Virus record (IMG/VR): IMGVR_UViG_3300025577_000022
Coordinates: 1-42,368 of that record
Origin: a virus
Strand: one strand, 5' to 3'
DNA length: 42,368 nt
Under the pieces are notes generated by a model. That model was given only the letters and a program-made list of their open reading frames with translations. It was not told where the DNA came from and made no database searches. A program made the translations under genes and the position numbers. The number at the start of each line of letters is the position of its first letter. Position 1 is the first letter of the stretch. Below, piece after piece: positions 21,858-42,368 of the stretch.

Positions 21858-21861
21858 AAAT

Positions 21862-23906: not shown

Positions 23907-23910
23907 AACA

Positions 23911-25274: not shown

Positions 25275-25310
25275 TTAAAAATGTTAATTAATAATAAACA
25301 TAATGTAGTT

Positions 25311-26209: not shown

Positions 26210-26213
26210 AACT

Positions 26214-26488: not shown

Positions 26489-26523
26489 AGTTATATTATA
26501 CACTAAGAATAGAATTATGTAAA
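26488..26523 (-). promoter_or_regulatory. Sigma70-like promoter
   Basis: TTTACA (26518-26523), 17-bp spacer, TATAAT (26495-26500), predicted start 26488. It lies just downstream of the muramidase-like gene and drives the 62-aa protein and Tat peptidase. Confidence 0.85.
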
Positions 26524-26536
26524 TAAAAAAATGTAA

Positions 26537-27522: not shown

Positions 27523-27595
27523 ATTTGTTTGTTTGTTTAAATGAGCCACTCGGCCCTAATATCATCAACCATATTAAATGATTGAGATATAAAAA

Positions 27596-28249: not shown

Positions 28250-28257
28250 AGTATTTT

Positions 28258-28265
28258 TATTTATA
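28258..28265 (-). promoter_or_regulatory. T4-type late promoter motif
   Basis: TATAAATA on the minus strand, 8 nt before the ATG of the spanin-like gene; agrees with a late lysis function. Confidence 0.65.
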
Positions 28266-28294
28266 TGTTTACGTTTTCTCTGAAGGGTGAATTA

Positions 28295-29431: not shown

Positions 29432-29433
29432 AA

Positions 29434-29706
29434 TTACTGAGATGTTCCGTTGTAAATATTATCAAGGAATGCTTGGAATTGATTAATTTTTTCAATTCGG
29501 TTTGGCCAATAAATGTAATCCTTACTGCTATCTTTTTCTAGATTTTCTAATAAAGGTTTAATTGCAGCAAACATTTTATCTAAACGCTCCTGTGCACTGC
29601 TGGCTTCAGTTGTTGCTTTTGTCACAATATCCAATTCTTCTTCGTTTACCGCAGTAAAACCAAAATCTTCAAATGTAGCAAAATTATTTACTATTTCTTC
29701 ACTCAT
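29434..29706 (-). CDS. Conserved small phage protein, 90 aa
   Basis: FEDFGFTAVNEEEL, then a helical DKMFAAIKPLLENLEKDSSKDYIYWPNRIEKINQFQAFLD. The YIYWPNRxEKIxxF motif is typical of a small acidic protein seen in many marine T4-like phages, role unknown (recollection, not a search). Overlaps the thioredoxin-like gene by 4 nt. Confidence 0.65.
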   Translation of the reverse strand: MSEEIVNNFATFEDFGFTAVNEEELDIVTKATTEASSAQERLDKMFAAIKPLLENLEKDSSKDYIYWPNRIEKINQFQAFLDNIYNGTSQ

Positions 29707-29984
29707 AATTCTTTTAGTATGTTTTGTATTGATGTTATATCTAGTATACCAACGTATACATTTTCCATTTCATATTTGTTTTTTGTTACTAAGATTGGTA
29801 AATGCTCAATATTGTTTCCTTTTTCTCTTAGTCTTCTAACTTCTTTAAAAACTAAGATAGGATCAACATCACAAGTTGTTAATGTATATTCATATTGAAA
29901 AGCTTTACAACCCTTTTGAATTTCATCTAAATAGTCGTCGCATCCTCCGCAACTCCAATCTAAATAAACATTTACCGTTTCCAT
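29703..29984 (-). CDS. Thioredoxin-fold protein with CxxC
   Basis: 93 aa. First strand VNVYLD, then the redox motif WSCGGC (C12, C15) and the helix following it; LPILVTK provides the cis-Pro strand. Small thioredoxin/glutaredoxin-like reductase, possibly serving ribonucleotide reductase or virion disulfides. No partner RNR gene in this window. Confidence 0.72.
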   Translation of the reverse strand: METVNVYLDWSCGGCDDYLDEIQKGCKAFQYEYTLTTCDVDPILVFKEVRRLREKGNNIEHLPILVTKNKYEMENVYVGILDITSIQNILKEL

Positions 29985-30103
29985 AACCGATATATTATAT
30001 ATCTGCTTAATTATAGTTCATAATATAAACATCCCATATACTGGAACTAAATTCGAACCGCTATCAGCAATTCAACATTGAATTGCAACACTCTTGAATA
30101 ACG
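29985..30103 (-). other. Intergenic stretch with a tRNA-like palindrome
   Basis: Contains GCAATTCAATGTTGAATTGC (a perfect inverted repeat) and GGTTCGAATTT, reminiscent of anticodon and T arms, but the acceptor and T stems do not pair. No gene is seen. Possibly a decayed tRNA, or chance. Confidence 0.3.
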
Positions 30104-31915
30104 TTATACAACAAACGCGATTTGTTTACTAGTGCCGTCAGGTAGTGTTAGGTATAAATCGCCGGTGGTATTTTCTACCCATAACTGGCACTTTCCTGCC
30201 TTATTAACGTCTGCTGCTGCACGTTGTTTTATGTATACAGTTCCCTGAACATCCAGACTTGGAGCAAAAGCTGTATCCGCTGCATCGGTTACGGTGCCCG
30301 TGCCTCCTAATATTACAGAGCGATCATGCCCAGTCTGAATTGTGTTTGTAGTTCCCCCAATTATGACCGCTCCAGTTGCGCTTTCGATTATGTTTGTATC
30401 GCCTCCAAGAACCGATGAATGCGCTGTTGCTGTTGATGCCGTTCCCGCTCCGGCTAATCCTACAACGCTGTTGATTGTTCCAACAGCACTCGTATATTTC
30501 GTGTTAAGAGTTGTGGCTGTAGACCCAAGTCCTTCAGATTCTTGCCCAATCACAATTTGACCGAAGCCTCCAATCGCAGAGCTATCGTTGCCAGTGACTT
30601 GATTTTCACGCCCTCCATAATTTACCGAGCGATTGCCGCTTACTACGTTTACAACTCCTCCAATAGAGCAAGCTTGATTGCCCGTGGCAACGTTGTTGTT
30701 GACTGGATTAGTAGGGTGCAAAGTTACAATCCTGCCTACACTAATATTGTTTAGCGTGGTCGCTCCGTTAGTTGTAACGGAATCAAGAGTCGGGTCTGCT
30801 GGTTGTAAAGCTGAGTCAAGTGCTGTTTTGTCGCCATCAACAAATGCTCCCTCAGCGGGTTTCACTTGCAGTCCAGAAAGGTCTTGGTCACCGCTAATAT
30901 AAAGTAACAAAGCTGTGCCAGTGTAATAATACTTCATAGTTATGACGTCACCGACTGTGAGGCTGTCAAAGTCAATAGGGTCTCCACTTATAACTATGTT
31001 AGGAGAGCCGACTGTCATGGAATAAGTAGCCGATCCGTCAGTCGAAAAAATTATCATCCCCGAATCTCCCTCTGCTGCATTTGTGATTGCAATAGAAGTT
31101 ACGCTTTCAGTCAATATCGTCTTTACGATCTCTCCCGCTGTATAGTCAAAAGAAAGAACGCCCGATGTTGTTTGTACACCTTGAATTTTCGTTTTTGATT
31201 GCCATGTGCCTACACCAGTTGCATCTGATGTGAGGACGTAATCATCGGTTGCTCCTGTTGGCAATTTGAATTCTGTCTTGATATTTAATTTGGAAACGTA
31301 TGCAGTATCCGCTGCATCGGTTACGATGCCCGTGCCTCCTAATATTACAGAGTGATCATGCCCAGTCTGAATTTTGTTCCCCTCTCCTCCCACAATAGCT
31401 GAATGGGTTGCGTTTTCAATTATTGAGGATTCCCCACCTAATGTAAGGCTGTGCTTTGCTACTGAGTCAGTAGCAAGTGAGGATGCAAGACCTACCACAT
31501 GATTAGCTCCCCCTACTGTGTTAGTGAACTTTGTGTTTAGGGTAATATTTGTTCCTCCAAATCCTTCTGACTCGTTTCCTCGGACAATTTGATTTGTCCC
31601 TCCAAAGGCTGAAGATTCGACTCCATTTGCTTGGTTTATTCTACCCCCAAAAGTTCCAGATCTATTTCCCGCTGCTACGTTACCTGTGCCTCCAATAGAC
31701 GCACTGCTACTACCAGAGGCGATATTGGTGTTTGCTGGATTAGTTGGATGCGCTGTGGCAATTTTGCCAACAGTAATATCGTTTAGCGTGGTTGCTCCGT
31801 TTGTTGTGACTGATTCGAGAGTCGGGTCAATAATTCCTAGGTTTGTCCTTGCTGCTGCATTGTCAGCACTCTTTAAAAGGTTGTCTATGTCTGTGGTTAC
31901 GGTTACATTTGCCAT
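30104..31915 (-). CDS. Fibre protein with duplicated YadA-head-like repeats
   Basis: 603 aa, no Cys. The N-terminus ends in ADNAAARTNLGI, then a region of short repeats with the S/A-x-x-GG-x-x-N-x-V/A-x-G pattern of YadA-type head domains (SASIGGTGNVAAGNRSGTFGG, HSAIVGGEGNKIQTG). The whole unit recurs at residues ~375-555 after a beta-rich spacer (KTILTESVTSIAITNAAEGDSG). The DNA is duplicated with constant offset of 1032 bp: 30273-30341 vs 31305-31373 and ~30705-30797 vs 31737-31829. Likely trimeric adhesin-like tail fibre. Higher GC than neighbours. Confidence 0.78.
   Translation of the reverse strand: MANVTVTTDIDNLLKSADNAAARTNLGIIDPTLESVTTNGATTLNDITVGKIATAHPTNPANTNIASGSSSASIGGTGNVAAGNRSGTFGGRINQANGVESSAFGGTNQIVRGNESEGFGGTNITLNTKFTNTVGGANHVVGLASSLATDSVAKHSLTLGGESSIIENATHSAIVGGEGNKIQTGHDHSVILGGTGIVTDAADTAYVSKLNIKTEFKLPTGATDDYVLTSDATGVGTWQSKTKIQGVQTTSGVLSFDYTAGEIVKTILTESVTSIAITNAAEGDSGMIIFSTDGSATYSMTVGSPNIVISGDPIDFDSLTVGDVITMKYYYTGTALLLYISGDQDLSGLQVKPAEGAFVDGDKTALDSALQPADPTLDSVTTNGATTLNNISVGRIVTLHPTNPVNNNVATGNQACSIGGVVNVVSGNRSVNYGGRENQVTGNDSSAIGGFGQIVIGQESEGLGSTATTLNTKYTSAVGTINSVVGLAGAGTASTATAHSSVLGGDTNIIESATGAVIIGGTTNTIQTGHDRSVILGGTGTVTDAADTAFAPSLDVQGTVYIKQRAAADVNKAGKCQLWVENTTGDLYLTLPDGTSKQIAFVV
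30273..30341. repeat. Intragenic direct repeat, copy 1
   Basis: 69 bp nearly identical to 31305-31373 (offset 1032 bp = 344 codons); the encoded end of each YadA-like unit. Confidence 0.85.
31305..31373. repeat. Intragenic direct repeat, copy 2
   Basis: Partner of 30273-30341; a few substitutions between copies (for example gatgcccgt for ggtgcccgt). Confidence 0.85.
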
Positions 31916-31928
31916 GATATTTTATTTG

Positions 31929-32108
31929 TTAAGGTTGTTTGTATATGGAAATTCCATCGGGTTGTAAATATTTAAAGCCAGTTGGCGAACGATATTCATC
32001 GTTTATTAATACTGGTGATACTGCTGGAAGATGATCTACAACCGATGTTACCACGGCTTTTACTGCAGATACAGATACAGCACTAGAAACTGTTGGTTTA
32101 TTAACCAT
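31929..32108 (-). CDS. 59-aa virion-type small protein
   Basis: MVNKPTVSSAVSVSAVKAVV... ending SIYKQP. The first half is Ser/Val/Ala-rich; the second, LINDEYRSPTGFKYLQPDG, is polar. It lies between the fibre gene and a beta-rich virion candidate in the same direction and fills the gap exactly. Possibly a structural accessory peptide. Confidence 0.55.
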   Translation of the reverse strand: MVNKPTVSSAVSVSAVKAVVTSVVDHLPAVSPVLINDEYRSPTGFKYLQPDGISIYKQP

Positions 32109-32113
32109 AATTA

Positions 32114-32416
32114 TTAATCTTTTATTACTATATTAACGGCAACTGCCGCCGTTGCTCCAGTTACTCTATATCGTATTAAGCATTTACCCAAAGAAAGCGT
32201 GTGAATTTCATCTTCAGTAATTTCTAAAATAGTACCATCACCTTTTTTCAATGTGATATAAACCGGAATTGTGTCTGTACCATTAAAAGAAGCTTCTACC
32301 GTTAAAGTGCCTCCACCAAAATCTCCATAAAAAGCAAAAGTTGACTCTGCTGATCTATATCCATAAACATCAGATTCAATATCTGCGCCTGTACCTGTAA
32401 CTGTTTGTGTTGCCAT
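32114..32416 (-). CDS. Beta-rich virion candidate, 100 aa
   Basis: MATQTVTGTGADIESDVYGYRSAESTF, FYGDFGGGTLTVEASFNG, then strand pairs and an end VAVNIVIKD. All-beta with Thr/Gly turns, like decoration or small fibre proteins. Two TATAAATA motifs precede it, consistent with late expression. Confidence 0.62.
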   Translation of the reverse strand: MATQTVTGTGADIESDVYGYRSAESTFAFYGDFGGGTLTVEASFNGTDTIPVYITLKKGDGTILEITEDEIHTLSLGKCLIRYRVTGATAAVAVNIVIKD

Positions 32417-32425
32417 ATTAATTAT

Positions 32426-32445
32426 TATTTATATATTTATTTATA
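32426..32445 (-). promoter_or_regulatory. Two T4-type late promoter motifs
   Basis: TATAAATA on the minus strand at 32426-32433 (9 nt before the ATG at 32416) and 32438-32445. Confidence 0.65.
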
Positions 32446-32790
32446 TACTGTAGCTAAGCCCTCATTTAATAGTAGATCATTTATATTAGTATAATCTCCG
32501 TTTTCGTTTTGAATGAATATTGTTGCTAACCAACGTCCATATTTTCCAGATTTATCTTTATAAGATTTAATAATAATTTCCTTATCATCAATTAAATCTC
32601 GCAAACGATCGCGCGCTATTAAACCATCTTGTCTTTCTTCACCACGAAGTTCAGGCGTGTCAATTCCATAAAATCGAATCTTCTGATTTCTCATCCATGT
32701 ATTAAACCCTAAGTCAATATCAACGGTAACAGAATCTCCGTCATACACATAAACAACGTGTGCCTTATAGTGGTAAATTTGATCAAGCAT
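32437..32790 (-). CDS. Staphylococcal-nuclease-like (SNase) nuclease
   Basis: 117 aa, about the single-domain size. VVYVYDGDSVTVDIDLGF, IRFYGIDTPELRG (catalytic Arg and Glu of the D-x-P-E loop), KSGKYGRWLATIF (second catalytic Arg) and NINDLLLNEGLATVYK are the thermonuclease signatures. Calcium-dependent DNA/RNA hydrolysis; no signal peptide, so cytoplasmic nucleotide scavenging is inferred. A large hairpin lies directly upstream. Confidence 0.85.
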   Translation of the reverse strand: MLDQIYHYKAHVVYVYDGDSVTVDIDLGFNTWMRNQKIRFYGIDTPELRGEERQDGLIARDRLRDLIDDKEIIIKSYKDKSGKYGRWLATIFIQNENGDYTNINDLLLNEGLATVYK

Positions 32791-32800
32791 ATTAAAGCAT

Positions 32801-32834
32801 GATAATGGGATAGTATATAATACTGCCCATTATC
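32801..32834. promoter_or_regulatory. Long nested hairpin upstream of the SNase gene
   Basis: GATAATGGG (32801-32809) pairs with CCCATTATC (32826-32834), and inside it AGTAT pairs with ATACT around a 3-nt loop, giving ~14 bp of stem with a small internal loop. It sits 11-44 nt upstream of the SNase ATG (32790). No U-run follows on either strand, so a leader element or protein-binding site is more likely than a terminator. Confidence 0.6.
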
Positions 32835-32843
32835 AAATAATAT

Positions 32844-33182
32844 TTATTCTACGATAGTTACAGAACCATCTTCGGCGGTTTCTGTAGCCGGCTTTAATGC
32901 AACTTTAGCCATAATCTCATCAAGGTCTTCTTGACGACGACCGGCTAATGCGGTACCAAAAAATGTAATCAGCTCTTCATTGAGTTCAAAAATTTCGGCG
33001 GCGTCAGTTCCAATCTCGGCTAAAACTGCCGCTGGATCTTCAGCAGACCAAACGAGGTCCCAACCGTGATGCCAAGATCTAATTAATTGATACGCCATCT
33101 GCGAAGTGGCGCGTTTAACTTGCCTTGCAGAACGTTCCCCATTTGATAAAACAGGACTTCTTTGATTTTCTAATATGCTCAT
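32844..33182 (-). CDS. Virion-type protein of unknown function, 112 aa
   Basis: Helical: ARQVKRATSQMAYQLIRSWHHGWDLVWSAEDPAAVLAEIGTDAAEIFELNEELITFF, then an acidic end. The QLIRSWxxGWDLxW...EILxALGTDAxElF pattern is a small phage protein type I know only as hypothetical. Higher GC than neighbours and two upstream late motifs suggest a virion gene. Confidence 0.6.
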   Translation of the reverse strand: MSILENQRSPVLSNGERSARQVKRATSQMAYQLIRSWHHGWDLVWSAEDPAAVLAEIGTDAAEIFELNEELITFFGTALAGRRQEDLDEIMAKVALKPATETAEDGSVTIVE

Positions 33183-33245
33183 TATGCTTATATATTATTG
33201 TTTATTATTAGTTTTATATCCGTCGTAACATAACGAATATAAAAC

Positions 33246-33267
33246 TATTTATATAAAACTATTTATA
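33246..33267 (-). promoter_or_regulatory. Two T4-type late promoter motifs
   Basis: TATAAATA on the minus strand at 33246-33253 and 33260-33267, about 60-80 nt before the ATG at 33182. Confidence 0.55.
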
Positions 33268-33691
33268 AACAATCTTCAAAGCATTGAATGGCTAATTGGG
33301 TTTCGAGTTTATATGCTTCTTTTTCCCAAGGCATATCATCATATTTAACTGTATCTTTAAATATGGTTTTTTTCCATTTAATTTTATTTAAAGAAACATC
33401 TTTAATTTCAAATTTAGCGTATTGTTTAAGATGTACCAATTCATGACAAAGAGAAGTCACAAAATCAAACAAACGCAATCTTTTATCAACCTCAATATTA
33501 AATTCCCGATGTTTGTCATCCATCGCTACACAATAGCCATAAGCTTTTGATGTTTTATAGCAATCAATAATATCAACAGTAATATCTAACGTTTTATAAC
33601 GAGGTAAATATTTCTTTAAAAACCAATCCACCGTCTTTTGAGCAATTTCTCTGCGATCTTTTGATGATCCATTTATTTCTATATGATTCAT
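33263..33691 (-). CDS. SprT-like zinc metalloprotease
   Basis: 142 aa. CHELVHLKQY gives the HExxH zinc site (H83, E84, H87) on a helix, with a likely third ligand in the downstream PWEKEAYKLE. Preceding strands (DITVDIIDCY, REFNIEVDKR) match the SprT/Spartan-type minimal metalloprotease. Spartan relatives cleave DNA-protein cross-links; a phage role in genome maintenance is inferred only from the family. Confidence 0.72.
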   Translation of the reverse strand: MNHIEINGSSKDRREIAQKTVDWFLKKYLPRYKTLDITVDIIDCYKTSKAYGYCVAMDDKHREFNIEVDKRLRLFDFVTSLCHELVHLKQYAKFEIKDVSLNKIKWKKTIFKDTVKYDDMPWEKEAYKLETQLAIQCFEDCL

Positions 33692-33694
33692 ACG

Positions 33695-33832
33695 TTAAGG
33701 TTTATCAATATAATCTTCGTCTTGAGCCTTTAACATATCATATGCTAAAGCGATAAAAAACCAAATTAAGCTGATAATCCATATAGAAACTAGGCAAGAA
33801 CCTAAAGTTATTAAAATTTGTAAAGTTGTCAT
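33695..33832 (-). CDS. 45-aa membrane microprotein
   Basis: MTTLQILITLGSCLVSIWII... with one long hydrophobic helix then MLKAQDEDYIDKP. Single transmembrane segment with an acidic tail. Sits between the SprT-like gene and the next gene without overlap. Confidence 0.5.
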   Translation of the reverse strand: MTTLQILITLGSCLVSIWIISLIWFFIALAYDMLKAQDEDYIDKP

Positions 33833-33870
33833 AGTGTTTTATTTAAAAGGTTTGCCCTGTGAATCATTGC

Positions 33871-33940
33871 TTACGCTATCACTCTTAGCCGGAGCCAGCC
33901 ACAGACTACAGTAACGTAGTAGCCTTTACGTTCGAAATTT
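33871..33940 (-). other. GC-rich gap after the 115-aa gene
   Basis: Unlike the AT-rich gaps elsewhere. The +1 frame stays open beyond the stop of the upstream gene to TAA at 33871-33873 and would encode AGKNFERKGYYVTVVCGWLR. It also contains ACTAC-agtaac-GTAGT. No ATG start; not annotated as a gene. Confidence 0.3.
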
Positions 33941-34288
33941 TTACCAGCTTGATGAATAGTATATTTTATTACCTTTTTTAAACTCTTTACGAGCTTTATC
34001 TATAAATTCTAAATCCTGTCTAAAATTATATTCATCTCGTGATGTATCGGATCCAAAAAAGAAACCTGCGGTGACTGGTAGTTCCTTTAGTAGAACAGCT
34101 TCTTCCAGCATATCAATCTCATCTTCAATAAGTTCAATTTCCACACAATTAAAACTTTCCTTACCACCTTTATGATTAACATAGATTGAAGCCATCCAGC
34201 CTTCAAGAGCATTATGCTTTCGCCAATATTGCAATTCAATTTCATTGCCGTCTTTATCCTTTGTGTATCCTGTTTGATCTAATCCCAT
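33941..34288 (-). CDS. Conserved phage protein with YWRKHNALEGW motif, 115 aa
   Basis: MGLDQTGYTKDKDGNEIELQYWRKHNALEGWM... SFNCVEIELIEDEIDMLEEAV ... TAGFFFGSDTS ... FIDKARKEFKKGNKIYYSSSW. The YWRKHNxLxGWM / FFFGSD / VYYSSWW-like end is a recognisable phage and bacterial family of unknown function. The natural C-terminus matches the family, so the stop looks genuine. Confidence 0.7.
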   Translation of the reverse strand: MGLDQTGYTKDKDGNEIELQYWRKHNALEGWMASIYVNHKGGKESFNCVEIELIEDEIDMLEEAVLLKELPVTAGFFFGSDTSRDEYNFRQDLEFIDKARKEFKKGNKIYYSSSW

Positions 34289-34294
34289 AATAAT

Positions 34295-34501
34295 TTAAAG
34301 TTCAATTTGTAATATACTATTTGCCTGATTCTTTTTAAAGGCATCCCACATTTCTTTATCATCCCAATCTTCTAAATCGATTTTCTCATGCGTGAGCTTT
34401 CGTGCTTTTAGAATCTTATACCGATGTTTCATTACTTCTTCGATATTGATTTTTTCCACATCAATTTTAAAGCTAACCAGCTCACTTATATCCATTGTCA
34501 T
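34295..34501 (-). CDS. Hypothetical protein, 68 aa
   Basis: Helical, with a basic middle (KHRYKILKARKLTHEKIDLEDWDD). Three nt from the upstream stop. No motif recognised. Confidence 0.55.
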   Translation of the reverse strand: MTMDISELVSFKIDVEKINIEEVMKHRYKILKARKLTHEKIDLEDWDDKEMWDAFKKNQANSILQIEL

Positions 34502-34504
34502 AAT

Positions 34505-34786
34505 TTAGTTTGTAATTTTTGATTTAATATCAAGAGTAATAAACTCAGGTTCGCGATAAAAAGGGACGATATCAATAATCTCGCAAAGATTCCAACTGCC
34601 TTCTTTATTATACTTAGCGTGAAATGCTTCTCTAATAGACTCATCGGCATAATAAAAAACATGCTCGTCTACTTCGGCAACAAAATCCATGCCACCTTTA
34701 TTCTTATATCGGCCATGGCCTTCGACACCTACATGGTCTTCACAACCATACCATTCTTTGTATTGCGTTTCAATTAGTACTTTCAT
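34505..34786 (-). CDS. Hypothetical protein, 93 aa
   Basis: Mixed alpha/beta with Tyr/Trp/His (YKEWYGCEDHVGVEGHGRYKNKGGMDFVAEVDE). No domain recognised. Leader AACTAATATATT without Shine-Dalgarno. Confidence 0.57.
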   Translation of the reverse strand: MKVLIETQYKEWYGCEDHVGVEGHGRYKNKGGMDFVAEVDEHVFYYADESIREAFHAKYNKEGSWNLCEIIDIVPFYREPEFITLDIKSKITN

Positions 34787-34806
34787 AATATATTAGTTTA
34801 GTTAAT

Positions 34807-35175
34807 TTAGAGAACATTTACACTTTCCAAATCATTAACGGTCGGCAGAGTCAGCCTATATTGAATTAGGTCTTCAATAATCTCATCAAGGATTTCGCGA
34901 TTATGTTGGCATTTCAATTGCTTATTTGTAATGATATGGCCTTCAACAATATCCATAACTTCTTCAGGAATTTCATAATGAACTTTATCACTTACATTCA
35001 AATTGTGACTTACGCGCTCAACGTCTGCAGCTTCGAAAAACACGTCTGCTTCGTATTCGTTGTCTTCGTGCCCAACCCATATCTTTACTTCGGCAATGAA
35101 GTACTCAGCTTTATAAATCATACCTGTCTCGATGTGGCGAACTGCGTCACCTTTATTAATGTCTTCGTTTTTCAT
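34807..35175 (-). CDS. Hypothetical protein, 122 aa
   Basis: First half beta-rich and like a small tudor/KOW-type barrel (GDAVRHIETGMIYKAEYFIAEVKIWVGHEDNEYEADVFFEAADVERV), second half helical. The barrel reading is only a shape guess. Second gene of the promoter C transcript. Confidence 0.58.
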   Translation of the reverse strand: MKNEDINKGDAVRHIETGMIYKAEYFIAEVKIWVGHEDNEYEADVFFEAADVERVSHNLNVSDKVHYEIPEEVMDIVEGHIITNKQLKCQHNREILDEIIEDLIQYRLTLPTVNDLESVNVL

Positions 35176-35203
35176 AATATAATAGTTTTAAAATTTTTAG
35201 TAA

Positions 35204-35401
35204 TTACCAAGCGGGATAAACGGCCATTGTCGAAAAGCTTTCTTCCATTTTTTCACGTTCCTTTTTCAAAATAAATTCGCGCTCCAGTTCATCTTCAATC
35301 AGCATTTCCGCTTTAAAGGCGGCCAAATCATCGAGAGTAAGACCGTGCTGTTCAGCAAATTTGAAGTCGGTTGCGGTAAATGTAATAGTTGGATTTATCA
35401 T
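35204..35401 (-). CDS. First gene of the promoter C transcript, 65 aa
   Basis: Helical, charged: LTLDDLAAFKAEMLIEDELEREFILKKEREKMEESF. Preceded by a 38-nt A/C-rich leader from promoter C. High early expression is inferred from the promoter. Function unknown. Confidence 0.6.
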   Translation of the reverse strand: MINPTITFTATDFKFAEQHGLTLDDLAAFKAEMLIEDELEREFILKKEREKMEESFSTMAVYPAW

Positions 35402-35438
35402 AATGTAGTGGCGGTTGGCTTGTTTCGTGCCTTCCTTG

Positions 35439-35530
35439 TAGATATATTATACCATAAAATAGCGCATTTGTAAATAAAATAATTCACAAAATGCACATTT
35501 TGTTCTGGAACCCCCGTAGAATATAGGGTT
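35439..35530 (-). promoter_or_regulatory. Early promoter module C
   Basis: TTTACA (35469-35474), 17-bp spacer, TATAAT (35446-35451), predicted start 35439. Outer AAATGTGCATTT at 35489-35500; the inner copy is degenerate (AAATGCGCTATTT). AACCC...GGGTT at 35509-35530. Same module as A and B. Confidence 0.83.
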
Positions 35531-35600
35531 TCAAACTCTCCAAAAACAGAGATTTTTAGGCTAAAATACGCATCTGTGCATATTTAGCAGAATATTATAC

Positions 35601-35846
35601 TTACCGACGACGGCATTTATGTATAATTGGCATCGTGCGCCATGCAAAAAGAGGTCTTCCATAATAGTCATATCCGACTAAGGTCCACTTAATATATATC
35701 GGACATCTACAAACTGGGTCATACCCAACTAGCTTTATATTTACATTTTGACCATTACTATTAAAAGTATTGTAATAACCATGTACTGTATCTGTTAATA
35801 TGAAACCGAAACATAGTATAGAAATTAGTATTAAAAATGATTTCAT
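35601..35846 (-). CDS. Exported small Cys-containing protein, 81 aa
   Basis: Signal peptide MKSFLILISILCFGFILTDTVHG, then two similar copies of a short unit: LVGYDPVCRCPIYIKW and LVGYDYYGRPLFAWR, ending in HKCRRR. Mature domain is Cys/Tyr-rich and basic, so probably periplasmic. Overlaps the upstream coiled-coil gene by 4 nt. Confidence 0.62.
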   Translation of the reverse strand: MKSFLILISILCFGFILTDTVHGYYNTFNSNGQNVNIKLVGYDPVCRCPIYIKWTLVGYDYYGRPLFAWRTMPIIHKCRRR

Positions 35847-36220
35847 TTGTCAGTAGTTTCTTTAACATTAAAGCTTTTAAGCATTGGAGATCCTAATGCT
35901 CCTTGTGGGAATGATGAAACTCTTGCTTCTAAGGTTGATATTCTATTTGAAAAATCCAATAGTTGGCTTTTAACATTTTGATCGCTTACCCAGATTTGAT
36001 CTTTCAGAGCTTTATTTCTTTCAGCGGAGGCTTCATTCTCAGATTTAACTTGTTGCTCAAGCTGAGCTAGTCTCATTGACTCTTGAACTTCTTTTGCGAT
36101 TCGTCCTTCCATAAAAGTATACATCGTAAGAGATGCTACTAATATACCAATCAAAAATGTAATAGTACCAAAACTAATATAATTAGCATTCTTTTTAGCG
36201 GTATCAGATGCTTCACTCAT
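35843..36220 (-). CDS. Membrane-anchored coiled-coil protein, 125 aa
   Basis: N-terminal transmembrane helix (~17-35, FGTITFLIGILVASLTMYTF), then coiled coil (RIAKEVQESMRLAQLEQQVKSENEASAERNKALKDQI...RISTLEARVSSF) and a polar end. Resembles an i-spanin in outline, but the late motif before it and the neighbouring exported protein leave function open; the better spanin candidate is at 27596-28249. Confidence 0.6.
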   Translation of the reverse strand: MSEASDTAKKNANYISFGTITFLIGILVASLTMYTFMEGRIAKEVQESMRLAQLEQQVKSENEASAERNKALKDQIWVSDQNVKSQLLDFSNRISTLEARVSSFPQGALGSPMLKSFNVKETTDK

Positions 36221-36225
36221 AAAAT

Positions 36226-36233
36226 TATTTATA
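36226..36233 (-). promoter_or_regulatory. T4-type late promoter motif
   Basis: TATAAATA on the minus strand, 5 nt before the ATG at 36220. Confidence 0.62.
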
Positions 36234-36250
36234 TAACTTTAATTTTTAAA

Positions 36251-36279
36251 CAAAAAAATGCGGTTATTACACCGCATTT
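36251..36279 (-). terminator. Intrinsic terminator
   Basis: On the minus strand AAATGCGGT-GTAATA-ACCGCATTT (36256-36279) is followed by a T-run. A 9-bp stem with six-base loop, directly after the stop of the zinc-ribbon/KKKST gene. Confidence 0.8.
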
Positions 36280-36302
36280 AAAATAAAGATTTACTAAAAC
36301 TA

Positions 36303-36635
36303 TTAAAAATTCATTTTAGGGGTTTTCTTTTTAACTACTTTATTTTCAGCCGCGGCTTTTTTAGTAGTAGATTTCTTTTTAGTAGATTTCTTTTTAGTAG
36401 ATTTCTTTTTAGTAGATTTCTTTTTTGCTTTAGGATCAACTCCTTTACAAAATTCGCATCCGCCGTTTAGCTCTTTACTAAGTTCTGCCGGATTTACCAA
36501 TAAATGCGCACCGCAAACAGAACATTCAAATACCTCTTGTTCAACATTTATATCAGCCCATCCTCTACCAAAGATCGCACGTGACATCCGTTTCCATAGG
36601 CCTTTAATACCTTTATTATTTTTTTCTTTTTTCAT
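36303..36635 (-). CDS. Zinc-ribbon protein with KKKST repeats, 110 aa
   Basis: Two CxxC pairs (CSVCG ~38-41, CEFC ~60-63) make a zinc ribbon, followed by a Lys/Thr/Ser tail KAKKKSTKKKSTKKKSTKKKST (four perfect 5-residue repeats) and KKTPKMNF. The tail is like histone H1/HU-tail repeats and would bind DNA or RNA. The repeated DNA is a 15-bp unit between about 36361 and 36425. A late motif precedes the ATG. Possibly a DNA-condensing or virion-packaged protein. Confidence 0.7.
   Translation of the reverse strand: MKKEKNNKGIKGLWKRMSRAIFGRGWADINVEQEVFECSVCGAHLLVNPAELSKELNGGCEFCKGVDPKAKKKSTKKKSTKKKSTKKKSTTKKAAAENKVVKKKTPKMNF
36361..36425. repeat. 15-bp tandem repeat encoding KKKST
   Basis: Four copies of tttttagtagatttc in tandem, prone to copy-number change; each encodes one KKKST unit on the minus strand. 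Confidence 0.85.
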
Positions 36636-36643
36636 ATCTATTT

Positions 36644-36651
36644 TATTTATA
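36644..36651 (-). promoter_or_regulatory. T4-type late promoter motif
   Basis: TATAAATA on the minus strand, 8 nt before the ATG at 36635. Confidence 0.65.
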
Positions 36652-36904
36652 ATTTGCTATTAATATATGTGTGATCCCAATCAACAAATTTAGATTTTAT
36701 TTCATGGTCAATTTCAACGTTATCAATCACGTGTTCTTGAATAATAGAAATTATTTTATTTAATGCTGATGCTGCTTCCATAGGCTCTAAAGCTGCGCCG
36801 TTTTCTAATCGAACTTGTTTCCATAATGGCGAAGCTGAACGAGCCGCAACACTGCTTCTATCTTGAGAACCCTTTCCTGCGTCTGAATGATTATAGTTTG
36901 TCAT
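36647..36904 (-). CDS. Hypothetical protein, 85 aa
   Basis: Polar N-terminus NYNHSDAGKGSQDRSSVAARSASPLWKQVRLENG, then a helical acidic part (EAASALNKIISIIQEHVIDNVEIDHEIKSKF). No motif recognised. Confidence 0.57.
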   Translation of the reverse strand: MTNYNHSDAGKGSQDRSSVAARSASPLWKQVRLENGAALEPMEAASALNKIISIIQEHVIDNVEIDHEIKSKFVDWDHTYINSKL

Positions 36905-36914
36905 TTCAAATTAT

Positions 36915-37151
36915 TTATTCAATTTCTTTTAACTTAATTTTTCTTCTATAGAATGGTTTTTCACTTGCATCTGCAGCAATAATCCATCCAGTTTTTAGTT
37001 TCGTAAATTGCCAATCTTTACCCAAACCAAATCGGCCAACCTTATAATAAACACCAAGGACTCCTCTTTCGGTAAGGCCTTCAACGATGGTTTCTTTATT
37101 ACCATCTTTAATTATCCATTTTCTTTTTTTAAATACTTTATTCTCGTTCAT
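36915..37151 (-). CDS. Hypothetical protein from a leaderless transcript, 78 aa
   Basis: Beta-rich and basic (RKWIIKDGNKETIVEGLTERGVLGVYYKVGRFGLGKDWQFTKLKTGW). The promoter start coincides with this ATG, which fixes the start. No family recognised. Confidence 0.65.
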   Translation of the reverse strand: MNENKVFKKRKWIIKDGNKETIVEGLTERGVLGVYYKVGRFGLGKDWQFTKLKTGWIIAADASEKPFYRRKIKLKEIE

Positions 37152-37186
37152 AGAATTATTATATCATAAATTTATACATATGTAAA
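37151..37186 (-). promoter_or_regulatory. Sigma70-like promoter giving a leaderless mRNA
   Basis: TTTACA (37181-37186), 17-bp spacer, TATAAT (37158-37163); six nt to ATG, so predicted start 37151 = ATG. Confidence 0.85.
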
Positions 37187-37198
37187 CAATAAAAATTA

Positions 37199-37807
37199 TT
37201 AATCGCACGATTGGCCATAAACTTCGGGTAAACATACATATGATGATACTACATATTTAGGACCAGAGATTGGTGTAGCTCCCATATGAGGAAACATAAA
37301 GAATGGCGGAAAGCATACAACGCTCCCAGCTTTTGGTTTAACGCTTAACGTTTTTCCATCTCCAAGATCAAATATAGTTTCGCCGCCTTCTTCTACATCA
37401 TTAAGATACCAAAACATAACGAGAGCACGTCTCATTGATTCAACACTTGCGCTATCAATATGCCAATCAAATTTACCTTTATTAGGTTCATATCGTTTAA
37501 CTCTTGGCGCTTCATAATCATTAAACCTTTCATAACAAGAGAATCTTTGTTTAAGGTTATCACATGTCTCATCAAAATACTTAAAGTTTGCATGTTGCAT
37601 ATATTGAATAAACTTAGAAGTAATATTCTCATTATATGCTGGATGGTCTATCATATTGATTTCAGAGAACCTCATAAAATCAGTATCACGACTTACTTTT
37701 AAATCGTCATCATCATTAATAGAATCATATGTACCGATAATATCTTTACATAACTTCTTTGGTAGAACGTTATCAAGAACAATAATATAATCTTCGATTG
37801 TTTTCAT
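37199..37807 (-). CDS. 2OG-Fe(II) oxygenase (prolyl-4-hydroxylase type)
   Basis: 202 aa. Double-stranded beta-helix iron ligands H116 and D118 (DWHIDSA) and H174 (FPHMGATPISGPKYVVSSY) with K184 as the likely 2-oxoglutarate anchor. The linking strands LVMFWYLNDVEEGGETIFDLGDGKTLSVKPKAGSVVCFPP are characteristic of the P4H-like family seen in many marine phages. Substrate unknown: protein proline, DNA base or glycan. Confidence 0.85.
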   Translation of the reverse strand: MKTIEDYIIVLDNVLPKKLCKDIIGTYDSINDDDDLKVSRDTDFMRFSEINMIDHPAYNENITSKFIQYMQHANFKYFDETCDNLKQRFSCYERFNDYEAPRVKRYEPNKGKFDWHIDSASVESMRRALVMFWYLNDVEEGGETIFDLGDGKTLSVKPKAGSVVCFPPFFMFPHMGATPISGPKYVVSSYVCLPEVYGQSCD

Positions 37808-37825
37808 AATAAAATAGTTTTAATA

Positions 37826-38008
37826 TTAACTAGGTTTACTTCCTATTGCAATTGTGGAAGAATATTGTTTACCTTTATATTTAAAGTTCATTTCATCATG
37901 ACCAAATATATTTTCGCTGATATTTAAAAACTCAACGTCATCTACATCAACCCATGTGTTTTTCTTTTTAACATATACCCAAGCCGACTTTACTTTTTCT
38001 TTACTCAT
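37826..38008 (-). CDS. Hypothetical protein, 60 aa
   Basis: Basic, beta-rich (SAWVYVKKKNTWVDVDDVEFLNI; FKYKGKQYSSTIAIGSKPS). Overlaps the upstream stop by one base. Nothing recognised. Confidence 0.52.
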   Translation of the reverse strand: MSKEKVKSAWVYVKKKNTWVDVDDVEFLNISENIFGHDEMNFKYKGKQYSSTIAIGSKPS

Positions 38009-38280
38009 TATTTTTTATGTTTTCCCCAAGATAGCTTTCCCAATATTCTGACAAAGATATAAAAAAACGTAGCACAAATTTCGAAGAATGCACTTCCATT
38101 TGATTGCCTTATCATATTTAATAAAAACTTAACATCAGATTCTTCTCTAGTAATGTCTTTAGATATATAATCCAAATCATGAATTTTACAACTGGCATTA
38201 AACTTAAAACTTAAAATCTTTCTAATAAATTTTGGTACCCACCAAGCTCCACAATAATATTTTTGTTTTTCAGGCTGCAT
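38008..38280 (-). CDS. Phospholipase A2-like small protein
   Basis: 90 aa. NASCKIHDLDYISKDITREESDVKFLLNM contains a C-x-x-H-D-x-x-Y catalytic signature (H34, D35, Y38) and a second acidic position (D49) as in the helical PLA2 core. The N-terminal CGAWWVPKFIR is basic and the C-terminal part is a hydrophobic helix (FFEICATFFYIFVRIL). Could hydrolyse host phospholipids during lysis or entry. The calcium loop of canonical PLA2 is not obvious. Confidence 0.55.
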   Translation of the reverse strand: MQPEKQKYYCGAWWVPKFIRKILSFKFNASCKIHDLDYISKDITREESDVKFLLNMIRQSNGSAFFEICATFFYIFVRILGKLSWGKHKK

Positions 38281-38302
38281 TATATATCTATTTATTAAAA
38301 GG

Positions 38303-38376
38303 TAGGGGCGGTAGGACTTGAACCTACGGCCAAAGAATTATGAGTTCTCTGCTCTAACCAACTGAGCTACACCCCC
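38303..38376 (-). tRNA. tRNA-Met (CAT)
   Basis: Acceptor GGGGGTG pairs with CGCCCCT (G-U ends), D arm AGCTCAGTTGGTTAGAGC, anticodon loop CTCATAA giving CAT, T arm GTAGGTTCAAGTCCTAC, discriminator A; CCA not fully encoded. The D arm and anticodon context look like elongator Met; a lysidine-modified Ile2 tRNA cannot be excluded. Confidence 0.9.
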
Positions 38377-38386
38377 TTTTTTTAAA

Positions 38387-38614
38387 TTATTCATTTACAA
38401 ATTCTTTTAGAATATAATTTTGCAACACCTTCTTTGTATAAGGACCTCCATTATAACAATAATCAAACACTAAATCTAAATAATGTTCATTGGTATCTTG
38501 CAATTCAAGAAGCAGTTCGCCATACAACTTTTCCTGAAGATCGCCTAATTCTTGAATTGACTTTGCATACTTGTCAATTGACTCCAATCGCTTATTTACT
38601 TCTGACTTATTCAT
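38387..38614 (-). CDS. Helical hypothetical protein, 75 aa
   Basis: NKRLESIDKYAKSIQELGDLQEKLYGELLLELQD is a coiled-coil-like helix; the end is YTKKVLQNYILKEFVNE. Starts 30 nt after a predicted transcription start that coincides with a 6-codon leaderless ORF. No family recognised. Confidence 0.57.
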   Translation of the reverse strand: MNKSEVNKRLESIDKYAKSIQELGDLQEKLYGELLLELQDTNEHYLDLVFDYCYNGGPYTKKVLQNYILKEFVNE

Positions 38615-38643
38615 AATTAAAAGTTAAACCACTTGGCTAACCA

Positions 38644-38679
38644 TAGATATATTATATACTATTTTTACGCAAATGTAAA
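38644..38679 (-). promoter_or_regulatory. Sigma70-like promoter with a leaderless minigene
   Basis: TTTACA (38674-38679), 17-bp spacer, TATAAT (38651-38656); predicted start 38644. The transcript would begin ATG GTT AGC CAA GTG GTT TAA, a 6-codon leaderless ORF, before the real gene at 38614. Confidence 0.82.
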
Positions 38680-38684
38680 TAATA

Positions 38685-39434
38685 TTATGTTGGTAAATTA
38701 TCAGAAAATTTACTTCTTAAATCCTGAACCGCAGGATCATCTGCATTATTTTCTAAAAATGAAACATATGAATAAGCTTGGTTATATCTAATAGCTTCAT
38801 CCCAAGCAACGCGTTCCTGAGCGGCGAAACCGTCAAAGCTACTATTTATTGAAGATACTAAGTTTTTCGCTGCAGTTATAATTGCTTTTGCGGCATTTAT
38901 GTTTGTTGTGGTTGTTTGCGAAGCCGTACCACCATTAGAGATAGCGCTAACTAAAGGCTCTTGCGCATTTATCTGAGATATCCAACCTGCTAAGTTTCCC
39001 ACGTCGTCCGCCCAAGTTTGTCTGCCTTTATAAAAAAAGGTGTCTTGTTCATCTGGTAGCGGTAAGTTACTTTCTGTAAATATCTTTATTTTTGTCTTAT
39101 CTCCGCCAGTTAAAACATTGGGTGTAATTTTATAACTACTAAAGTTGTCAGTACTAGGATTTTCTTTCCACCAATCATTATAATGAAGTTGTGCTGCAGC
39201 ATTCATATCATCAATGGTATCTCCTAAAAAACCAATCTCATTATGATAAGCGTCAATAGCATCAATCACCGTTGTGTTTGGTGGTTCTCCTCCAGATAAA
39301 CCATTTGTAAAAATACCGATTTTTGATGTGCTTACGCTTTTTAAATTATTAAGCGGGACGTTTAATGTCCTATACGGATATGCCGCATCATTTTCATTAT
39401 AAACGGATTCTACTAATTCATATAATGTTGCCAT
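38685..39434 (-). CDS. Virion-type protein of unknown function, 249 aa
   Basis: Soluble, Asn/Ala/Thr-rich: LYELVESVYNENDAAYPYRTLNVPLNNL, then AQLHYNDWWKENPSTDNFSSY, a poly-Thr linker (TASQTTTTNINAAKAI) and helical end. Late motif 9 nt upstream of the ATG. No fold recognised; a tail or neck accessory protein is inferred from late expression. Confidence 0.62.
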   Translation of the reverse strand: MATLYELVESVYNENDAAYPYRTLNVPLNNLKSVSTSKIGIFTNGLSGGEPPNTTVIDAIDAYHNEIGFLGDTIDDMNAAAQLHYNDWWKENPSTDNFSSYKITPNVLTGGDKTKIKIFTESNLPLPDEQDTFFYKGRQTWADDVGNLAGWISQINAQEPLVSAISNGGTASQTTTTNINAAKAIITAAKNLVSSINSSFDGFAAQERVAWDEAIRYNQAYSYVSFLENNADDPAVQDLRSKFSDNLPT

Positions 39435-39443
39435 AACTAAATA

Positions 39444-39451
39444 TATTTATA
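39444..39451 (-). promoter_or_regulatory. T4-type late promoter motif
   Basis: TATAAATA on the minus strand, 9 nt before the ATG at 39434. Confidence 0.65.
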
Positions 39452-39617
39452 TACCAAACAGTGACCAACCGTGTGTAGCAATAGCGTTTAATATAATAAA
39501 GACACATGTAATCATATTAAGTAATATCCATACACTTCTTACAATAGCAACGCGATCGGCTTTACGATTATCAGTATAAGCTTTCTGCCCAATTGATTTA
39601 CACCATAATTCCCACAT
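39447..39617 (-). CDS. 56-aa membrane microprotein
   Basis: MWELWCKSIGQKAYTDNRKA... with a basic Lys/Arg/Asp segment and one transmembrane helix (SVWILLNMITCVFIILNAIA), ending HGWSLFGI. The MWELWCKSIGQKA start is one I associate with small phage proteins. The late motif at 39623-39630 is 5 nt before the ATG. Confidence 0.6.
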   Translation of the reverse strand: MWELWCKSIGQKAYTDNRKADRVAIVRSVWILLNMITCVFIILNAIATHGWSLFGI

Positions 39618-39622
39618 AAACT

Positions 39623-39630
39623 TATTTATA
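39623..39630 (-). promoter_or_regulatory. T4-type late promoter motif
   Basis: TATAAATA on the minus strand, 5 nt before the ATG at 39617, inside the end of the UV endonuclease gene. Confidence 0.6.
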
Positions 39631-40555
39631 CTTCAGCTTCCAGAAATTTCTTATCATCTTTAATTTTACAGATAGCTTTATCTTTAGATTTTATTTCACA
39701 TTCCCAAGTAACATCTTTGTTTAATTGAACAACAGCTGGGACATGAGTAAAATAATCTGCGTGCTTATTAGATCCATCTATACCTTCGCTCCAATGGAAA
39801 ACTGGTGTATGTACTCCCCAAGTTCCTTTGAATAACTTAGCCCATTGATCTGAATATGGTATTGACGAAGGATTACATTGGTCATGAAGGTTATCATAAA
39901 CAAATGGAATAAAACCATTAAACGTATTATATAAGTTTTCGCATGACCAATACCCTTTGTCTTCGTTTTCTAATACTAAACGATTCTGAACTCCTTTGGA
40001 ACACCGCCAAAAGCCTTCACAAAATCTATCAAAATACTGAGTGGTAAATTCTTCTACGCCTGGCGATCTATTTAGATGTAAACACATTGGCGAACTATAA
40101 TCAGATTTGCAACCTAGCCAATCAAGAACTTGACTCTCATGATTTAATTGAAGTATACTTCGACGAATAGTATCTTCACTAAGACTTGCTAATACGTTAA
40201 ATTGAGAAGGATGGCAACTTAAAGTAATATCATATTGTCGAGCAAGATCTCCTGCTTTTCCTAACCCTGATATAATAGAATCAATATCTGGAAGATCTTC
40301 ATATGATAATTTTAAAGTCTCATCCGTGACAAGAGGAAATATACTGCTGCTTACACGAAGATGACCAATTCCATTTTCATGGCATGTCTGAATCGTTTTA
40401 GATAAGACTAAAACATTATGTGCAATACGAGCCGATAGCTCAACCATACTTACGGCTCTATCTTCAGTTAAAAACCTTTTACGAGTCATTGCTCGACTAT
40501 GCAGTTTTTCTTTTGAACGGAGGATCTCACTAATACATACTAAACCTAATCTCAT
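39626..40555 (-). CDS. uvsE: UV damage endonuclease (UVDE)
   Basis: 309 aa, full length for the TIM-barrel UVDE family. RLGLVCISEILRSKEKLHSRAMTRKRFL opens it; HLRVSSSIFPLVTDE, LSCHPSQFNVLASL, LHLNRSPGVEEF, LVLENEDKGYWSCENLY, FVYDNLHDQCNP and GVHTPVFHWSEG supply the metal-binding His/Glu/Asp residues of the barrel. It nicks 5' of UV photoproducts and abasic sites, starting repair. Leaderless predicted transcript. Common among marine phages exposed to sunlight. Confidence 0.9.
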   Translation of the reverse strand: MRLGLVCISEILRSKEKLHSRAMTRKRFLTEDRAVSMVELSARIAHNVLVLSKTIQTCHENGIGHLRVSSSIFPLVTDETLKLSYEDLPDIDSIISGLGKAGDLARQYDITLSCHPSQFNVLASLSEDTIRRSILQLNHESQVLDWLGCKSDYSSPMCLHLNRSPGVEEFTTQYFDRFCEGFWRCSKGVQNRLVLENEDKGYWSCENLYNTFNGFIPFVYDNLHDQCNPSSIPYSDQWAKLFKGTWGVHTPVFHWSEGIDGSNKHADYFTHVPAVVQLNKDVTWECEIKSKDKAICKIKDDKKFLEAEV

Positions 40556-40590
40556 ATAATTATTATATCACATAAACTAGCATTTGTAAA
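40555..40590 (-). promoter_or_regulatory. Sigma70-like promoter of UVDE, leaderless
   Basis: TTTACA (40585-40590), 17-bp spacer, TATAAT (40562-40567); AATTAT then ATG, so predicted start 40555 = ATG. Confidence 0.86.
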
Positions 40591-40612
40591 TAATAAAATA
40601 AGATATTATATA

Positions 40613-42368
40613 TTAGTTTAAATCAATGATTTCAATAGCATTAATTGCACAATTTTCTACATTATTAATAAATTCAATTGTTAATAATTCGTTATTAGTA
40701 GAGATATTAAAGGATTTTGTTATTCCTTTATATAATATACTGCCCGCCTCAGCAAATCTATCAAAATCAAGTAATTTGGTCACGCCATTAATTTTAACTT
40801 GAAACAAGCGTTGCCCTGCGCTTGTAATCCCATTGAATAATTCAGCAAAATATAATCTGACTTCATACTCACCATTTGATACTGGAAAATTATAGGTCAT
40901 TTCATCATATCGTTCAGTATGAATAACCTCTTCAGGCGTTGATGTTGGTACTGAAGAATCAAAAGTATAAGTCGGCGTACCACCGGGAGTGAATATGTTA
41001 TTAGAGGCAGCTGTTAGATATGTTGTATTAATTGTATTATCCGCTTCCCAATCCATATAATTATCAATGGATGTTGCTAATGGACCTCCACAATTAATTC
41101 TATAAATAACATATGTGGCGCCCGCAAAGATAAAGTTGTTAGCCAGCGCGTTTTCTATAGTCGCTAGATCCAATAGTTCGTCATCCCAAATAGGGTTCCC
41201 GTGTAATTTAACTCGGTTTTGATAAGCTTCTTTTTCAGGATCTCCTTTAACAAATTGGGAAATATCTAAAAGACTTCCTTCGGAAAAATTACAATCAGAC
41301 CAATCATTTACTCCTGATATAGTAAGCGTCTTTGGATCCAAAGGATAAAACCCAGTAAGGTTAGTACATCCTCTTAAGTTTAAAGTATGCTTTGTATTAT
41401 ATCCACTGCCTAAAGCTAAGCTAGTTATTCCAGTATTATCGGTAAGATTCATTCCAAACTCTGAAGTAAATCTGTCATATACTTTTGCGACACGAAAACC
41501 GTTGCTGAAGATCTCGCTGTCCGGGTTGTTGCCGGAGCGGAAGTTCGATTGATTCGGCGGGTCGCTGACCCAGCTGCCGCCGCGGACTCCTCGAGCCTCA
41601 GTAGCAGGATCATTTGTACCCTGCAATGTTGAAAACAAGGCACTTTCTATCCACTCATATACATTACCTCCTTGACCCATCGTTCCATAAGGACTAAGAC
41701 CACCAGCATTATTAACATCAGCAGGGCCTTGACCGCCAGGTTGGGCATAAACAGCTTCTCCTGTTATTGTACTACCAGCTGTTGGTGTTGGAAGAGTATC
41801 GCTTCCTGTTGCATAAGTGTAATAAACATCTGCTTGACTATCATAATAAGCTGCTTTATACCACTCATTTTCGCTTGGTAAGAAATACGTTGTATATTTA
41901 TGACGATAACGATTCTCACCACCTGCTGTCCATGAATCGGCCACAGCCCATAAAGATATATTGTCATTAACACCACCAGTATCAAATTTATAAGCGGGTT
42001 GAAACCCTTCTCTTATATTAAGCCAATTAATATAACGAGCCGCTTCATTCCACGATATTGTAGCTGGCTTATCAGTACCTCTATTATCTAGTGTTATTTG
42101 CCGAGTACTGTTTACAGGGGCAGCATTATAAGTGGCAATGTCGCCTTCACTAATTGTATACCTACCAATCTGATATACATATGATACATCGCCATAACCC
42201 ACATTTTGAGGTTCTTGAGGCGCATCCACGGCATTACCTGCATCTCTAATAGTTACAAATTCTGTCAGGGGTGTGGGCGGTGCAGCCGTAGGCGTATCTG
42301 CAGGATTTACATCTACTGTAATTTGCCGTAAATCTAATGTTCCAGTTAGTGCATTACAATTTGATATT
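40613..42368 (-). CDS. Large adhesin: FGE/C-lectin domain, LRR-like part, malectin domain (5' end cut)
   Basis: The frame is open to the window edge, so the N-terminus is missing (a GTG at 42229 is in frame but not a likely start). Order: an LRR-like remnant (ISNCNALTGTLDLRQITV), a Pro/Thr linker, an FGE-sulfatase-like C-lectin domain (VTIRDAGNA, ATISWNEAARYINWLN, YFLPSENEWYKAAYYD, SPYGTMGQGGNVYEW, RGVRGGSW, NGFRVAK), a second LRR-like part (LNLRGCTNLTGFYPLD) and a malectin-like domain (YRINCGGP, MTYNFPVSNGEYEVRLYFAE, NCAINAIEIIDLN). The FGE domain has no cysteine, so enzyme activity is unlikely; ligand binding is expected. Probable receptor-binding virion protein. Confidence 0.83.
   Translation of the reverse strand, partial: ISNCNALTGTLDLRQITVDVNPADTPTAAPPTPLTEFVTIRDAGNAVDAPQEPQNVGYGDVSYVYQIGRYTISEGDIATYNAAPVNSTRQITLDNRGTDKPATISWNEAARYINWLNIREGFQPAYKFDTGGVNDNISLWAVADSWTAGGENRYRHKYTTYFLPSENEWYKAAYYDSQADVYYTYATGSDTLPTPTAGSTITGEAVYAQPGGQGPADVNNAGGLSPYGTMGQGGNVYEWIESALFSTLQGTNDPATEARGVRGGSWVSDPPNQSNFRSGNNPDSEIFSNGFRVAKVYDRFTSEFGMNLTDNTGITSLALGSGYNTKHTLNLRGCTNLTGFYPLDPKTLTISGVNDWSDCNFSEGSLLDISQFVKGDPEKEAYQNRVKLHGNPIWDDELLDLATIENALANNFIFAGATYVIYRINCGGPLATSIDNYMDWEADNTINTTYLTAASNNIFTPGGTPTYTFDSSVPTSTPEEVIHTERYDEMTYNFPVSNGEYEVRLYFAELFNGITSAGQRLFQVKINGVTKLLDFDRFAEAGSILYKGITKSFNISTNNELLTIEFINNVENCAINAIEIIDLN
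41489..41590 (-). other. Candidate DGR variable region
   Basis: GC-rich island in an AT-rich gene, covering GGSW to GFRVA at the end of the FGE/C-lectin domain. Many codons are NNC differing only at the first two bases: GTC, AGC, GAC, AAC, TTC, GGC, AAC, AAC, GAC, AGC, ATC, TTC, AGC, AAC. This is what adenine mutagenesis of AAC codons in a template repeat produces. Ends in GGTTTTCGTGTCGC, like the conserved end of many such regions. Confidence 0.7.

Follow-up and report, generated by a model that had tools for sequence, protein, structure and literature searches.

The window, that is, the whole stretch of DNA analysed here, is one entire virus record (IMGVR_UViG_3300025577_000022; 42,368 bp, 34.7% GC), and the element in question is a GC-rich variable region (VR) in its last gene, a candidate target of a diversity-generating retroelement (DGR). 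The gene, which is adhesin-like, lies on the minus strand (40613-42367) and is open at the right edge, its 5' end being past it; the 584 amino acids present comprise an FGE domain, the VR, a linker and a malectin domain. The FGE-sulfatase domain, of the C-lectin type, covers residues 94-295 (41483-42088, minus strand; Pfam PF03781, E 1.7e-15) and the malectin domain residues 420-576 (40640-41110, minus strand; Pfam). The structure model of the protein has a pLDDT of 37 and the C-lectin/FGE fold was assigned from sequence; a search of solved structures with the same protein gave malectin matches only. The VR core, from CGCGGCGGC to GGTTTTCGTGTCGC, occupies 41487-41584 (minus strand) and is preceded by the VR 5' edge (GAG GCT CGA GGA GTC; 41585-41599, minus strand), which is template-like in other phages and only partly so here. 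Its fixed 3' end, GGTTTTCGTGTCGC (41487-41500, minus strand), is common to the phage VRs and is found with small changes in bacterial templates.

A preliminary description of this DNA had drawn attention to a GC-rich island of NNC codons at the end of the FGE domain. The island is indeed there, with the codons that were named: 41487-41597 is the 111-bp stretch of highest GC content in the record (64%), the best one more than 200 bp distant reaching 0.58. Codons ending in C make up 22/37 in the VR and 55/538 elsewhere in the gene (Fisher p 7e-12, not counting 10 codons at the borders), and the GC content at third codon positions (GC3) goes from 0.18 in the 100 codons upstream to 0.76 in the VR and 0.22 downstream. 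The placement of the variable residues at the end of the FGE domain also holds, with the qualification that the VR closes the domain and not the protein, since about 290 residues, including the malectin domain, come after it. The window VR is one codon shorter than that of a related phage locus (L015) and reads CCG CCG AAT CAA where the others have an NNC run and TTG CAG. It is the least typical of six phage VRs and probably comes from a sister template, or has drifted since.

These six VRs, which share one frame and lie in AT-rich genes, are those of the window and of loci L001, L008, L015, L088 and L161. GC3 in the six genes is 0.18-0.35 upstream, 0.76-0.92 in the VR and 0.21-0.29 downstream. 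When the template of Verrucomicrobiaceae bacterium E54 (L262) is used as a ruler, L015 and L088 differ at 24/32 sites where the template has adenine and at 1/68 other sites (p 3e-15); with a second bacterial template (L279) the differences fall at 23/34 and 2/66 sites. Pairs that include L161 differ at 23/32 template adenines and 6/68 other sites, and at 26/32 and 7/68. By codon position (first, second, third), the differences between L015 and L088 are 13, 14 and 0 in the VR (33 codons), 18, 17 and 25 upstream (98 codons), and 2, 1 and 1 downstream (60 codons). When the six phage VRs are compared with five bacterial templates, adenine sites differ more often than the others in all 30 comparisons (p 8e-11 to 0.02). 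The window VR differs from L279, its nearest foreign template, at 22/38 template adenines and 20/82 other sites (p 5e-4), and from template L278 at 18/32 and 28/88 (p 0.02). Taken alone, it is weak evidence for a DGR. Control pairs of a bacterial VR and its template repeat (TR) differ at 22/35 adenine and 0/88 non-adenine sites, and at 21/38 and 0/85. Site-specific variation is also seen for the VR of the window itself: between the window and L003-L005 the flanks are 86% and 96% identical and the VR is unalignable. The outcome that the preliminary description had named as a refutation, which included a lack of such variation, is thus not what is observed. That the phage VRs as a family are DGR variable regions is thus hardly in doubt, and it is this family that bears out the DGR-type region which had been proposed for the adhesin.

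A second VR, of an AT type, is found where the FGE domain is fused to a baseplate-wedge domain (L009-L014, L023, L024, L341-L351). Near-identical phages show local hypervariability in it, including some changes at third codon positions; L351 and L341, for example, differ at 5/120 VR sites and at 0/184 sites upstream and 0/250 downstream. No template was found for it.

The window phage is an AT-rich, T4-like phage. Its gp32 is 53-54% identical to the gp32 of Prochlorococcus phage P-SSM2 and of phage C48C1 (a Kyanoviridae record), and neither blastn with the VR nor tblastn with the protein found a relative in the phages collection. Several of the samples are, we assume, North Sea pelagic ones; no paper was found to contain any of six IMG identifiers looked up for their habitat. 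A 170,716-bp record (IMGVR_UViG_3300025876_000006; G005) is 99.5-99.9% identical to the window over positions 1-40599 and, on sequence identity, belongs to the same species. A 61-bp stretch of a 15-bp tandem repeat is common to both ends of G005, and the window spans the junction between them: window 16426-36425 corresponds to G005 20000-1 and window 36365-40599 to G005 170716-166482, the two ends meeting at the tandem repeat in 36357-36416 (repeat listing and alignment to G005). Two more contigs, G002 and G004, also cross the junction, as implied by their mapped ends and lengths, and in sample 3300025704 G004 and G021 span the same circle. We therefore take G005 as circularly closed, with some care because of the junction repeat. 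It matches 42 of 59 chosen C48C1 genes, including the portal, large terminase, major head protein, DNA polymerase, clamp loader and most baseplate genes (T4 gene numbers being our own labels); the 17 without a match include two wedge and several fibre genes. G005 contains three FGE genes: one fused to the baseplate-wedge domain (50365-54732; AT-type VR at about 53877-53968), one with FGE, LRR_5 and a weak malectin match that contains the L088 VR (147808-152517), and the counterpart of the window gene (163774-166470). The FGE domains of the family sit in large tail-region proteins, in keeping with the adhesin-like role first suggested. Window 40600-42368 and G005 163774-166482 are strongly divergent in this one gene between otherwise 99.5-99.9% identical phages, and window 40600-41184, which contains the malectin domain, has no DNA match in G005.

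Concerning the machinery, the window record has no RVT_1 match, as the preliminary description had stated for the reverse transcriptase (RT), and no repeat of the GC island is found among the 20 largest of 38 direct repeat families and the 25 inverted pairs listed for the window. Among 24 records with an FGE relative, RVT_1 matches three, as does bAvd (PF22296), and the template pattern (up to three mismatches) is found in 3/23; all are of the L016-L018 type (records G013-G015), short viral contigs that each carry all parts of a DGR (FGE target, Avd, RT and template). The VR of L016-L018 is 3 nt shorter than their own template. RVT_1 matches none of the other 21 FGE-bearing records, one of them G005, and G005 contains no RVT_1, bAvd or template match in searches whose positive controls were detected. 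The window's own strain is incomplete in the data. The whole-record searches cover loci down to L024 of 79 relatives, the point at which identity drops, with L025-L079 (about 27-34% identical) not searched for RT; two further records in the RVT_1 scan are chance pattern matches outside the 24. Five pattern scans of viral contigs contained no template of the VR frame TTGCAGTCGTCC..GGTTTTCGTGTCGC; they yielded VRs, unrelated DGRs, the L016-L018 templates and chance matches (among these L083, L091, L160 and L162, rejected as viral templates), and one hit to the template 3'-end pattern (L164) was not examined. The RT relatives in viral contigs are 37% identical at most (18 loci, judged from the match table). 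The machinery is therefore quite likely not phage-borne. Of the two locations proposed for it, past the right edge or in trans, the former is not borne out for the species and action in trans survives, with Planctomycetota/Verrucomicrobiota bacteria as the likely source.

The phage VRs are homologous to bacterial templates. A scan for the VR frame across 84,980 bacterial and archaeal species, each represented by a single genome, gave 107 stretches, all viewed by motif, with at least six A-rich templates (L175, L182, L226, L250, L253 and L262). One of the stretches, L193, is a VR in a metagenome-assembled genome (MAG) titled Akkermansiaceae bacterium UBA985, on a contig that looks chromosomal (open reading frames resembling thiC and a penicillin-binding protein by eye). 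At third positions, L193 matches L015 and L088 at 35/37 sites each in the VR and at 46/139 upstream; with the window the agreement is 28/36 in the VR and 40/129 upstream. By its name the MAG would belong to genus UBA985, now Candidatus Mariakkermansia, for which PMC8857213 gives a marine surface habitat, North Sea spring blooms and 50.2% GC. An exact-pattern search found 1/260 genomes of the family, the L193 MAG itself; in the order of this MAG, 3/386 genomes contain a template near the inferred one, and for the class the count is 0/384 genomes. In a genome of the Akkermansiaceae family (G234), Avd and RT genes precede L279, the closest template found. In the VR/TR pairs of G234 and G120 the non-adenine differences are 0/85 and 0/88. 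L015 differs at 10/85 non-adenine sites from L279 (six of them third positions) and at 10/88 from L262, compared with 17/88 and 18/88 for planctomycete templates. Outside the VR, the identity of the window protein to target proteins of planctomycetes and Verrucomicrobia is 44-56%, with top matches from both groups (loci fetched through the VR pattern only). Based on these non-adenine counts and protein identities, the template is very probably of a Planctomycetota/Verrucomicrobiota type, the VR frame favouring Verrucomicrobiales. The near-repeat with mismatches only at template adenines, which had been suggested as a check, is found in part: homologous templates exist in bacteria, and none matches perfectly at all non-adenine sites, the best being L262 and L279 against L015.

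DGR retrohoming has a fixed 3' limit and a looser 5' limit. In the phages, the tract common with bacterial templates ends at GTGTCG(C) in 6/6 VRs, with four different downstream contexts, and the 5' limit is variable, reaching CGGCTGTTGAGTCGCGGGTG in L015 and L161 and being shorter in the others. Contig ends are also found near VRs: G002, which matches 10.8 kb of the window at 99.9% identity, stops 66 bp from the window VR, G004 and G021 both end at one VR, and G016 ends about 100 bp before a baseplate-type VR. Of 20 mapped ends, four are within 150 bp of a VR where 0.14 are expected (p 1e-5; 3e-4 if the break common to G004 and G021 is taken as one), a count biased by the selection of records for their FGE genes. 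These ends and the local variation of the AT-type VRs speak for ongoing activity.

We propose that a tail adhesin of this phage contains, at 41487-41596, a DGR variable region that would have been written by mutagenic retrohoming from a GC-rich template of bacterial type, with template adenines becoming random bases and other bases being copied. The cDNA would replace the end of the FGE domain, with its fixed limit at GGTTTTCGTGTCGC and the looser one on the 5' side. The RT and template would lie outside the phage, most likely in its host, putatively a Planctomycetota/Verrucomicrobiota bacterium and most likely one of the Verrucomicrobiales, whose DGR would act on the infecting phage in trans and so may give progeny with new binding surfaces. 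We give this reading as a whole, in which a bacterial DGR template that probably belongs to the host is used in trans to write the tail-adhesin VRs of the phage, a probability of about 0.6; its steps (VR family, template type, machinery not phage-borne, writing in trans) are not independent.

The main rival is that finished VR tracts of bacterial FGE genes, themselves DGR targets, were taken up by homologous recombination, so that mutagenesis occurs only in bacteria and the phage shuffles the products. The FGE genes are mosaic (73.8% and 89.6% identity flanking the VR between otherwise 99.5-99.9% identical phages), one VR is identical in four samples, and there are bacterial VRs whose silent sites are almost the same (L193), all of which recombination would accommodate. 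It should, however, carry bacterial sequence further than it does: the shared tract matches the extent of the TR/VR repeat and always ends at GTGTCG(C), and upstream third positions agree at only 23-39% with three bacterial target genes. We consider such capture unlikely, and lean towards writing in trans on the phage DNA over uptake of ready-made tracts. A DGR carried by the phage itself, with RT and template in a variable locus of the phage or of a strain, now or until recently, appears more doubtful still. The stretch past the right edge of the window's own incomplete strain is unseen and L016-L018 show FGE genes of like kind in self-contained viral cassettes, but against this stand the RVT_1 negatives in all 21 other FGE-bearing records, the closed same-species genome included, the five viral scans without a template of this frame, and viral RT relatives of at most 37% identity. 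Ordinary diversifying selection with mosaicism in the adhesin, without any DGR, is very improbable. It could account for the AT-type VRs of the same phages, which vary locally with some third-position changes, but it would not pick out the positions at which a bacterial template has adenine (24/32 vs 1/68), spare all 33 third positions, or lift GC3 from about 0.2 to 0.9 in one short tract, and for L015, L088 and L161 it is hard to hold. An acquired GC-rich cassette under ordinary selection is rejected in view of the codon positions and the adenine sites.

Several observations weigh against the proposed reading. The exact-frame template was not found in the bacterial genomes searched (the 84,980-species scan, the family, order and class), and the 14 genomes of the L193 genus contain no DGR-like RT locus; three of them match RVT_1 (two above the cut-off), in four loci without a template or VR-end motif, one of which (L301) was set aside as resembling, by eye, a retroelement contaminant. 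Outside the VR, the window protein is as close to planctomycete as to verrucomicrobial proteins and is 34% identical to L193. The window VR departs from templates at many non-adenine sites (20/82 to 28/88), and the G005 counterpart of the window gene has a different, AT-rich VR, though with the same 3' end. Of 15 phage pairs, none is as clean as L015/L088: third positions differ at 1 to 18 sites in the rest, partly through indels. Also, one GC-rich VR is identical in four samples, though one contig differs at 21 sites nearby; diversification is therefore at most episodic.

Other features of the window include a UvdE-like UV endonuclease gene (39626-40555) that adjoins the adhesin gene. A 47-nt AT-rich element (ATTATTATA..TGTAAATAA) is present in twelve copies between 1270 and 40598; the copies compared lie at gene starts (e.g. 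40552-40598, 37148-37194) and the elements are perhaps promoters. Three 102-nt copies, 88-90% identical, are found at 5611-5712, 9687-9788 and 35429-35530, with further similar stretches in G005.

Among known systems, the Verrucomicrobiales DGRs (L279/L282 in G234, and L262 in Verrucomicrobiaceae bacterium E54, which is the same DNA as G120) resemble the phage system in their FGE target, in the template frame RGGNWNNNSNNL(Q/A)SSNRNNNSP..NENNNIGFRVA and in VR/TR differences at adenines only; unlike in the phage, which has the VR only, template, VR and (in G234) Avd and RT are on one bacterial contig. The viral cassettes L016-L018 have an FGE protein 44-45% identical to that of the window and a template frame with ..P..E..IGFRVA, but are self-contained, with target, bAvd, RVT_1 and template inside 6.5-11.9 kb records. 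Bordetella phage BPP-1 likewise has an adenine-templated VR in a C-lectin-type fold of its tail receptor-binding protein, but contains its own RT, Avd and template. Its DGR (mtd) is named in PMC12875486. An argument for DGR action in trans has been made for a single bacterial genome: according to PMC10907252, the trans-diversified targets of Thiohalocapsa PB-PSB1 are VRs without an adjacent cognate template that match a distant one at all non-adenine sites. They resemble the present case in lacking a template nearby, but all their parts are in one genome, whereas the VR studied here belongs to a phage and its related templates to bacteria, with no perfect match among them. In the open-licence PMC literature searched, no account was found of a phage gene being acted on by a bacterial DGR, which is no proof of novelty.

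The preliminary interpretation is thus partly supported, and the reading that replaces its guess about the right edge is more unusual than the original proposal. The chances seem to us even that a T4-like phage with no DGR machinery of its own maintains, in several of its tail adhesins, landing sites compatible with a DGR, and that the DGR of its bacterial host rewrites these sites during infection. If a phage that lacks RT and template is indeed rewritten by the bacterium it infects, bacterial DGRs would help to set phage host range, the lack of an RT in a phage would no longer mean freedom from DGR variation, and retrohoming across genomes would be directly testable.
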